A DNA stretch of 52,254 nt from Nitrospira sp. (GTDB taxonomy: Bacteria > Nitrospirota > Nitrospiria > Nitrospirales > Nitrospiraceae), in the NCBI GenBank assembly GCA_029881435.1, contig JAOUMR010000016.1, positions 1 to 52,254 of the forward strand, written 5' to 3'. Below are positions 19,003 to 22,065 of the stretch, piece after piece. Numbering within the stretch: the stretch's first letter is position 1; each line of letters begins with the position of its first letter. Below the pieces are notes generated by a model. That model was not told where the DNA came from. It did not search any database and worked only from the letters and a program-made list of their open reading frames with translations. The position numbers and the translations under genes are program-made.

Positions 19003-20568
19003 TCAGCGGAAGAGCATCTCGCAGGCTGACGCAGTGGCTCGCTCCATGGCTGCAAGTTGCCGACGAACTCTTTGATCTTCCGCTCGTGCGAATCGTGCTA
19101 AATTGACTAATTCGTGGTGCTCCAGTGTCCTCGCTTCTCCCGAGTCGATCAGATCGATCGCACTCTCCAGCACGTCCAACATGACTCCGTTGGAGGACTG
19201 GACCAAGGCGCGCGCGGCCGCGTCACGATCCGGGTCACGGCGCCGGTTTGGCATATCGAGATGAGTGTCGAATAACATTCCCCGAAGGACGTTCCAGGTC
19301 GCATGGCTACCGAAATTGCGTCCTTCGAACGCCATCAAGCAGAAGTCCCACAGTAAGTCGACATGTGGGTCGAGGAAACGATATTCGGCCTCCAATGCTG
19401 GTCCGTTGAGCCGACCTTCTTCTCTCAACCGTTTTTCAATTGGTATCCCCACATACGGCAGGGTCCGGCAAAATCCAGCCACGGCCCAGCCGTCCTCGGT
19501 GAAGGTTCGGAGGAATGTCATGTTGTTGCGCGCCGTCTGCATGGTGGACCATGGCTCCAGTAGCATGAATCCGAAATCGAAGCTCACATCCAGCTCGCGC
19601 AGAATCTTTCCGGCACGAAGATGAACGTCCGGTTGCAGATGCTTGTTGAGCACGGCGAGGCTTGTTTCATCTCCACCTTCAACACCCATATATACATGGC
19701 ATAATCCCGCCGAGACGAGGGGCGCCAGGAGATCGACGCGGATCTCATCCGATCGGCAGGCGATCTTCCAGCGCATCTCTTGCTCAAGCCCACGGCGAAC
19801 AATTTCGCCAGCAACCGCTTTCGCCCAGGCCTTGGCCTCCGTCCCGCCGGCTAAGAAGTCGTCGTCCTGAAACAGAATCAGCTTCGCGCCGCGGTCTCGT
19901 ACCAAATGCTCCACCTCATCCACGACCTTTACGGGACTGCGGCGACGACGCCCGGTCGTCCCATTCGCTTCGTAAAAGGTGATGATGGAACAGAAGGAAC
20001 ATTTCCATGGACAGCCACGTGAGCCAAGAACTGATGCTGTGGGAAGATCTTGCCGTCGATAGTCGATGTCACGGCGATCCGGTTCGGGGAAGTCATCGAT
20101 ATGGGTCCGACCCTGCCGAGGTGGAGTGAGCACGACGTTGCCTTGATCCAGCCAGGCAATGCCGGGGACTTGCCGCCACAGGGACGAATCATCGAGTTTC
20201 TCCGCGATTTCTATCAAGGTATCCTCGCCCTCGAAACGGACGACCGAGTCGAGTTCCGGAATGTGTCGGAGCAATTCTGCCGGCTCGAACGACGCATAGT
20301 GTCCACCGATGGTGAAATGCGCCTGCACAGCGGCGGCCCGAAGCGCACGGATGACTGTGGCAAATTGCGGCACCATGTATTGGAATATGAGCGAGAACCC
20401 AACAATATCAGGCCGCTCAGTCTGAATGAGACGCAGCAAAGGGTCCGGATCGCTGCCGAACGCAACGATCCGGGTGTGATGACCATGTTGCAATAACCGA
20501 CTGGAGAGGTATCGAATCCCAAGGTTGTCTTGGTCTTCATACCCCACCAGGAGAACACGTCGTCCCAT
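19003..20568 (-). CDS. B12-binding-domain radical SAM protein
   Basis: Radical S-adenosylmethionine enzyme of the cobalamin-binding class. Residues 1-135 form a Rossmann-type B12-like domain. The base-off histidine motif DxHxxG is replaced by D12-Q-D-N-L-G17, so cobalamin, if bound, is held without that histidine. The radical SAM core carries the cluster motif GCPWKCSFCS (Cys186, Cys190, Cys193). Substrate is unknown; relatives include methyltransferases and ring-forming enzymes. The start lies five bases after the stop of the 331-residue upstream gene, with no separate promoter room, so the two are almost certainly co-translated. That makes the neighbour, or something it binds, a candidate substrate. 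Confidence 0.9.
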   Translation of the reverse strand: MGRRVLLVGYEDQDNLGIRYLSSRLLQHGHHTRIVAFGSDPDPLLRLIQTERPDIVGFSLIFQYMVPQFATVIRALRAAAVQAHFTIGGHYASFEPAELLRHIPELDSVVRFEGEDTLIEIAEKLDDSSLWRQVPGIAWLDQGNVVLTPPRQGRTHIDDFPEPDRRDIDYRRQDLPTASVLGSRGCPWKCSFCSIITFYEANGTTGRRRRSPVKVVDEVEHLVRDRGAKLILFQDDDFLAGGTEAKAWAKAVAGEIVRRGLEQEMRWKIACRSDEIRVDLLAPLVSAGLCHVYMGVEGGDETSLAVLNKHLQPDVHLRAGKILRELDVSFDFGFMLLEPWSTMQTARNNMTFLRTFTEDGWAVAGFCRTLPYVGIPIEKRLREEGRLNGPALEAEYRFLDPHVDLLWDFCLMAFEGRNFGSHATWNVLRGMLFDTHLDMPNRRRDPDRDAAARALVQSSNGVMLDVLESAIDLIDSGEARTLEHHELVNLARFARAEDQRVRRQLAAMERATASACEMLFR

Positions 20569-20573
20569 TGCGG

Positions 20574-21569
20574 TTATTTCCGAGGTGTCGTCTTCTTTGC
20601 CATCGCCTCCAAGGTTTTCAACACAGCCTGACCGCGGAGCAAGGTCGCTCTGGTTCCTGCGATCGTGCGCCTAAGCTCGGCAGACTGCATCTTCTTGGCG
20701 GCACCGAGCAGACCTTCGAATGCATCGAAGTCCGTGACAGTTCCGCCACGCACCACATCGAGCGATTCGCTGATCAACTTCAGTCTGATGATATCTTCTG
20801 GTGACGGGTCGCCTTTGTCGATAAACTTACCCAAATCATGAGCCCGGATCAGTTCGATGAGCTTCACGAAGATATCGATTCCAGGCTTGGCCGGCACGAC
20901 ATATGCTGCCATCAGGAAACTGCTGTTGTTCTGAGGGACCGAGAAGAACGGAGATGTCGAATTCGCAATACCTGTTACCCCTACTCCTGAGACGATGTCG
21001 TCATCATTCTCTTCAAAATAGCCAGTGGCATCCCCACCGTAGACGAGCTGTTGCCATGAGGAAAAGTCTAAGAGAGGATCGCCGATGCTTCGTTGCAGAT
21101 GGTCTTTGGCATGAATAGTTGCCGCACCCCATTGGGTTCGGACGACATGGTCGTTGCCGTCACCAGGCCATGCGACCGGCGTACCTCCTGGCGCATTGAC
21201 GAAGGTGCTGCCTGGTCCATCGATCGGTGTGGGATTGATTGGCCCTGTGCTGACCCAGTGAGCATCCACGATTACACGAGCCGTCGTACCAGGTCCAGTG
21301 GGCGGGATACCGTAATAGGCTGCAGCAGGCCATTCCGACCAATTTGTGGGATGGTTGAAAGTCCACCGAATCTTCCGTTTCCCTGTAATGCGTCGGCCGG
21401 TATCCCAATACAGAAACGACCGTGACACGCCGTTGGCATCCGGCAAGGACGGAGGCGCTGTCTGTTCAACCGTTGTCCCAGCAGCGGTGACGGTGACATC
21501 GAGCGATCCGAATGAGCTGAGGTCCGTCCCTTCACGAAACAACTTGCCCTTCGTCGTGAAATGCCCCAT
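20574..21569 (-). CDS. unknown protein paired with the radical SAM enzyme
   Basis: The 331-residue protein has no family I recognise. The start at 21569 (MGHFTTKGKLFREG) has a strong AAGGAGGG site. No signal peptide or membrane segment is visible. Residues 1 to about 230 are rich in Gly, Pro, Thr, Trp and Asn with beta-like spacing (VTAAGTTVEQTAPPSLPDAN; KIRWTFNHPTNWSEWPAAAY). The last 100 residues are helical and charged (KPGIDIFVKLIELIRAHD; ELRRTIAGTRATLLRG) and end in a basic tail. The radical SAM gene follows after five bases. It could be the substrate, a scaffold, or a structural protein that is modified. No cleavable leader or short core peptide is apparent. Confidence 0.7.
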   Translation of the reverse strand: MGHFTTKGKLFREGTDLSSFGSLDVTVTAAGTTVEQTAPPSLPDANGVSRSFLYWDTGRRITGKRKIRWTFNHPTNWSEWPAAAYYGIPPTGPGTTARVIVDAHWVSTGPINPTPIDGPGSTFVNAPGGTPVAWPGDGNDHVVRTQWGAATIHAKDHLQRSIGDPLLDFSSWQQLVYGGDATGYFEENDDDIVSGVGVTGIANSTSPFFSVPQNNSSFLMAAYVVPAKPGIDIFVKLIELIRAHDLGKFIDKGDPSPEDIIRLKLISESLDVVRGGTVTDFDAFEGLLGAAKKMQSAELRRTIAGTRATLLRGQAVLKTLEAMAKKTTPRK

Positions 21570-22065
21570 GCCGCGTCCCTCCTTTTCAGAATGTGAAAGT
21601 CGTCTCCTTACAACTTGCCAGTGGATGCAAAGCGATGGTCTGCATTTGGGTTGACCGAAAGTATTCCGGTGACGGGCTACTTCTCCGGTACTCCAGTTGG
21701 TCCCTGAACTGAGCTTGATCGGGGCAGCGAGCTGTCCCGAATTCCCCCCACGCATATTTCTAGGAACGATTGTGCCTTCGAAGTATCGAGCGAATAATAG
21801 TATCACATGTTTTTGCCATATTAGGAATACGAAACTACTATGCGCTGGAAGAAATACCAGGAGATTGTGTTTCCGGGATGAAGCAGGTCAATAGTCCGAG
21901 AGGCGTGATACCCTCGGCGTACTGATATTTCTCACGCTGGATGACCGCGATGATATGGAAACTAGGCCAGGTGTCGTTGAAAGCAGTGTCAACCTAGTGC
22001 CGCGCCGTCCTGGCTAGGATGAGGAGCAAGTGATCGAATGGTGAGGAACGCTCTATCACCAACCG
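21570..22065. other. intergenic stretch upstream of the radical SAM pair
   Basis: About 500 bases between two minus-strand genes. No supported gene. The promoter of the 331-residue gene should lie in the part adjoining 21570, but no clear boxes were identified. Confidence 0.4.

Follow-up and report, generated by a model that had tools for sequence, protein, structure and literature searches.

The window, that is, the whole 52,254-nucleotide stretch analyzed (contig C35 of a 3.7 Mb Nitrospira genome, G000, 99.85% complete), carries two adjacent genes on the minus strand. The first is an open reading frame of 331 amino acids without a family match (positions 20,574–21,569; hereafter, the partner), and the second encodes a B12-binding radical SAM enzyme of 521 amino acids (19,003–20,568), recognized by its Pfam domains and CX3CX2C motif. 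A 5 bp minus-strand spacer separates them (20,569–20,573), in exact agreement with the earlier note made from the DNA alone, which had placed the radical SAM gene five bases past the stop of the preceding gene. The region upstream of the partner (AAAAGGAGGGACGCGGCATG) includes a Shine-Dalgarno site, AAGGAGG as read on the minus strand, at 21,577–21,583 (position to within a base or two). An AGGAGG/GGGAGGG-type site is kept before the partner in 7/7 relatives, which bears out the strong ribosome site reported for this gene, while a Shine-Dalgarno site before the enzyme gene was absent from all seven loci with the pair, including the spacer of the window. The gap between the two genes is 5 bp in five loci and is replaced by an ATGA overlap in two genomes (G036 and G186), where the enzyme ATG lies on the TGA stop of the partner. 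Because the ribosome site is strong for the partner and absent for the enzyme, we infer that translation of the enzyme is coupled to the partner stop codon. This arrangement suggests an excess of partner together with translational coupling, and points to a partner output at least equal to that of the enzyme. The fixed stoichiometry that the earlier note had read from the spacing is not implied. mRNA structure at the junction was unremarkable (z 1.2), and promoter and terminator scans gave results near chance level. The flanks, described before as gene-poor, comprise about 0.5–0.6 kb without evident genes.

Judged by its sequence, the second gene product is a cobalamin-dependent radical SAM enzyme of the Rossmann B12 class. 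Pfam searches identified a B12-binding domain (PF02310, 69 bits; residues 7–121, positions 20,206–20,550, minus strand) and a radical SAM core (PF04055, 54 bits; residues 183–338, positions 19,555–20,022, minus strand), the latter with the cysteines C186, C190, and C193 of the CX3CX2C motif, which are invariant in aligned family members. Alignment placed Asp14 where MetH-type domains have the base-off His, so the substitution pointed out previously is real, but it carries no special meaning. The position is occupied by D, G, or E across the subfamily, and base-off binding of cobalamin in many B12 radical SAM enzymes involves no His ligand (PMC13331322), so that an Asp is ordinary here and a special role for Asp14 was rejected. 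An AlphaFold model of the enzyme (pLDDT 86) matched MgmA, AprD4, OxsB, and TsrM best among PDB structures, tied or near-tied at Z 23–24, with further fold matches to TokK and CysS. Against every functional equivalog model in NCBIfam, the enzyme scores well short of the cut-off.

The partner could not be matched to any family in Pfam, NCBIfam, PHROGs, or PADLOC, in line with the previous description of a protein of no recognizable family. Searches against PDB sequences gave nothing usable (best E ≥0.24), and the partner was not found in plasmids, phages, or viral contigs. Its first two thirds (residues 1–227) contain 26 Gly, 19 Pro, 8 Trp, 10 Asn, and no Cys, counts that agree with the reported Gly/Pro/Trp/Asn richness, and its C-terminal part (228–331) is helical, as had also been proposed, with helices predicted at 233–326, though the model is poor. 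Structure prediction of the whole partner (six close relatives) yielded no fold (pLDDT 29). The seven orthologues are 85%–90% identical, and both the eight Trp residues and the absence of Cys are invariant among them. Values of dN/dS for the partner are mostly 0.04–0.07 and similar in both parts, reaching 0.135 overall for the closest pairs, and those for the enzyme are 0.07–0.11. Both genes are thus under strong purifying selection, and the low dN/dS of the partner indicates more than a chance open reading frame. Conservation is even along its length, with no conserved cleavage site and no variable core.

A profile search detected the partner in 7/79 Nitrospira genomes and nowhere else among the 395 Nitrospirota genomes in which the occurrence of the pair was surveyed. 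The enzyme gene follows directly in 7/7 cases, and the partner was never found alone. Tabulating co-occurrence in this way, as had been suggested, shows that the linkage holds, always with the 5 bp gap or the ATGA overlap; the partner does not occur widely without the radical SAM gene, and adjacency is not peculiar to one strain, being kept across species and across three genomic contexts (window/L027/L028/L030; L029/L032; L031/L050). In G030, a single deletion, corresponding to L029 9,657–11,541, took the whole partner together with the 5′ end of the enzyme gene. The remnant of the pair in that genome (L032, G030:C117, 3,479–4,409) retains a 310-aa open frame of the enzyme. Directly downstream of the pair in G186, there is a transposase-like open reading frame (L050, 11,367–11,765), which may explain the differing genomic contexts. 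No protease, exporter, or second modifying enzyme was found beside the pair among the neighbors scanned.

To place the enzyme, we relied on a family profile search and a maximum-likelihood tree. The subfamily comprises 15 intact members in Nitrospirota (seven with the pair and eight others) and one truncated copy. All 15 form one clade (support 100/99), within which the seven enzymes of the pair are sister to an enzyme of genome G012 (100/99; 49% identical). Long branches make the order of the outgroups unsure, and only these two nodes are relied upon. Relatives on plasmids of Sinorhizobium, Burkholderia, and Solidesulfovibrio were considered and set aside, being approximately 30% identical and outside the clade. 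A Burkholderia stagnalis plasmid carries what is likely a separate RiPP-type cluster (L047, 7,873–13,398), in which a 55-aa protein annotated as hypothetical is surrounded by three radical SAM genes, together with insulinase-family protease and AzlCD transporter genes.

Each of the eight other intact subfamily members is immediately preceded by a same-strand gene of 67–171 aa, whose product has a DPxP(W/F) motif and, as read from sequence, an apparently helical C-terminus. Five genomes (G329, G222, G205, G183, and G348) encode peptides of 77–78 aa that contain INWDPVPWWFFER..., followed by the putative helical tail, while the 68-aa peptide of G030 contains VKDPVPPWIRN.... The upstream gene in G012 is longer (171 aa), with five DPxP motifs in a Gly/Pro/Trp-rich stretch and putative helical ends, and that in G195, from a different family of the phylum, encodes 111 aa with VADPxPW-like repeats and helical ends. 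These peptides align on DPxP and the tail. For most pairs, the relationship exceeds what local-composition shuffles give; that of the G012 peptide is weaker (P about 0.03 or more, local shuffles). A profile of the short peptides found them in 7/175 family genomes, every time beside the enzyme.

The partner is the counterpart of these short peptides by position, orientation, and coarse anatomy (Pro/Gly/Trp-rich start, helical end, no Cys). Sequence homology between them was undetectable with hhalign or local shuffles: the hhalign alignment fell on partner residues 254–270 (P = 0.16), and local-shuffle P values were 0.35–0.57. A link between partner DPSPED (254–259) and the DPxPW of the peptides looks good by eye but is not significant by either method, and composition alone would give one DPxP in the partner with a probability of 10%. 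Since Cys is absent from the seven partners and from the short peptides, Cys thioethers of the sactipeptide or ranthipeptide type are excluded.

The G012 sister enzyme is encoded by one of two B12 radical SAM genes that belong to a RiPP-type cluster (L033, G012:C13, 6,962–15,600). Gene order there is sigma-54 activator, 171-aa gene, sister enzyme, a TIGR03975 RiPP radical SAM C-methyltransferase (715 bits, cut-off 282), and a PatA/PatG protease (724 bits, cut-off 421), such that the sister enzyme sits between a Pro/Trp/Gly-rich precursor-like gene and the TIGR03975 and protease genes. The RiPP-type character of this cluster, seen at one locus only, places the subfamily among peptide-modifying enzymes. 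The enzyme of the pair shares its B12-binding and radical SAM architecture with TIGR03975 but scores 65.7 bits against a cut-off of 281.85, and the pair differs from TIGR03975 and PatA/PatG clusters in its lack of a protease or second enzyme and in the 331-aa length of the partner. In the window genome, G000, a TIGR03975 enzyme was also identified elsewhere (L077, C138, 6,419–8,269; 596 bits), and others scoring about 600 bits occur in G036, G186, G329, G183, G205, G222, and G348. The same genome has a stand-alone PatA/PatG-type protease on contig C118 (L076, 7,898–10,343; 711 bits). Next on that strand comes a Pro/Arg-rich open reading frame of 122 aa with a Cys-rich end, which could be a precursor and lies near the contig end. 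By genome mining, several RiPP clusters have been reported for all Nitrospira genomes examined (PMC9765116).

Characterized enzymes of the same class offer precedents for both peptide and protein substrates. MgmA (PDB 9ccb), a tied best fold match of the enzyme model (Z 24.1 over 370 residues), is a C-methyltransferase that acts on a glutamine in methyl-coenzyme M reductase, a folded protein, so that action on a protein has a precedent in the fold group of the enzyme. The enzyme studied here differs from MgmA in sequence (17% identity; 52 bits for TIGR04014, cut-off 360), and neither methyl-coenzyme M reductase nor a partner of that kind is present. ApyD (NF050148), the aminopyruvatide Tyr beta-methyltransferase, belongs to the shared class and C-methylates a peptide encoded beside its own gene. 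It is a B12 radical SAM RiPP enzyme that beta-methylates Tyr to beta-methyltyrosine and carries an RRE domain (PMC10635010). Unlike ApyD, the enzyme of the pair has no Pfam match to an RRE domain, and its score is 89.8 bits against a cut-off of 750.

Taken together, we consider it somewhat better than an even chance (a probability of roughly 0.55) that the partner is a protein substrate dedicated to the enzyme. This role is the most likely one given where the partner gene lies, the coupling, the joint loss, and the phylogeny of the enzyme. The earlier note had left the choice between substrate and scaffold undecided; the first is favored, provisionally, because all relatives of the enzyme carry a gene for a precursor-like peptide at this place, and the second has lost ground. 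The enzyme would then be a member of a small Nitrospirota subfamily of RiPP-type maturases, and the partner would fill the slot where relatives keep a short precursor-like peptide gene. Under this model, the partner would be made first and in larger amount from its strong ribosome site, with the enzyme following by coupling at the partner stop. If the short peptides are a guide, the enzyme may hold the partner by its helical C-terminal third and would modify at least one residue of the Gly/Pro/Trp-rich first two thirds at a carbon atom. C-methylation, the best-known reaction of the B12 radical SAM class, would be the simplest such change, but crosslinking or other chemistry may take its place. 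The whole partner is conserved, and the pair has neither a protease or exporter nor a second enzyme nearby, which favors a modified full-length protein as the product over a cut-out peptide. Several points speak against a substrate role: the partner lacks detectable sequence homology to the short peptides, greatly exceeds usual precursors in length, and is conserved evenly; the enzyme is far under all equivalog cut-offs; and the RiPP-type sister cluster is a single locus.

The length and even conservation of the partner (dN/dS about 0.05 in both parts), together with its lack of resemblance to the short peptides, would suit a non-substrate accessory: a recognition protein, scaffold, or carrier that delivers some other substrate to the enzyme, be it a peptide from a gene elsewhere, a lipid, or a small molecule. 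Separate recognition proteins are frequent in RiPP systems, and RiPP-type genes are available in trans in G000 (PatA/PatG on C118 and TIGR03975 on C138). However, relatives of the enzyme have a precursor-like peptide at that position rather than an accessory, and the three contexts have no further candidate substrate gene in common next to the pair, such that we regard an accessory role as possible but unlikely.

It is also conceivable that the partner is a precursor cut in trans, with a short modified segment set free by a protease such as the stand-alone PatA/PatG-type one in G000, whose homolog stands beside the sister enzyme in the G012 cluster. However, PatA/PatG proteins above the cut-off occur in only two of the seven pair genomes (G000 and G012), neither an exporter nor a peptidase accompanies the pair, and purifying selection acts on the whole partner, with neither a conserved cleavage site nor a variable core; hence, we consider such release improbable. 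Equally doubtful is that the enzyme makes or alters a small molecule (a lipid, cofactor, or porphyrin), and that the partner, though in one operon with it, has an unrelated or structural role: the top-scoring equivalog models are those of the small-molecule enzymes BchE (TIGR02026, 115 bits) and HpnR (TIGR04367, 114 bits), which share its two-domain architecture, but these scores are far under the cut-offs (481 and 650, respectively), and the nearest enzyme relatives adjoin precursor-like peptides, joined in G012 by RiPP enzymes.

Should the partner be the substrate, the locus would represent a two-gene system in which the target edited by a B12 radical enzyme is a large protein and not a short peptide, with a likely peptide-based origin according to the phylogeny. 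A broader scenario, which we advance tentatively and at less than even odds, is that a RiPP-type B12 radical SAM lineage switched from short precursors to a large, evenly conserved protein, giving rise to a self-contained two-gene system whose product, a radical-modified full-length protein, may have a structural or cofactor-like role in nitrifiers, and which together with the DPxP(W/F) systems would constitute a new RiPP-type class. The enzyme class and RiPP logic are already known; the large dedicated partner and the set of DPxP(W/F) and helical-tail precursors, with its own Nitrospirota enzyme subfamily, are in none of the curated family libraries used, and a search of a limited literature library returned nothing on the subfamily or its peptides. 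Within a few kb of short-peptide enzyme loci, genes for a DUF2278 and lamin-tail protein were observed in two cases (L034, 5,068–6,090, and L049, 11,972–12,994). Genes for M4-like and matrixin metalloproteases are located upstream at L034, the matrixin one with a DUF6623 domain.
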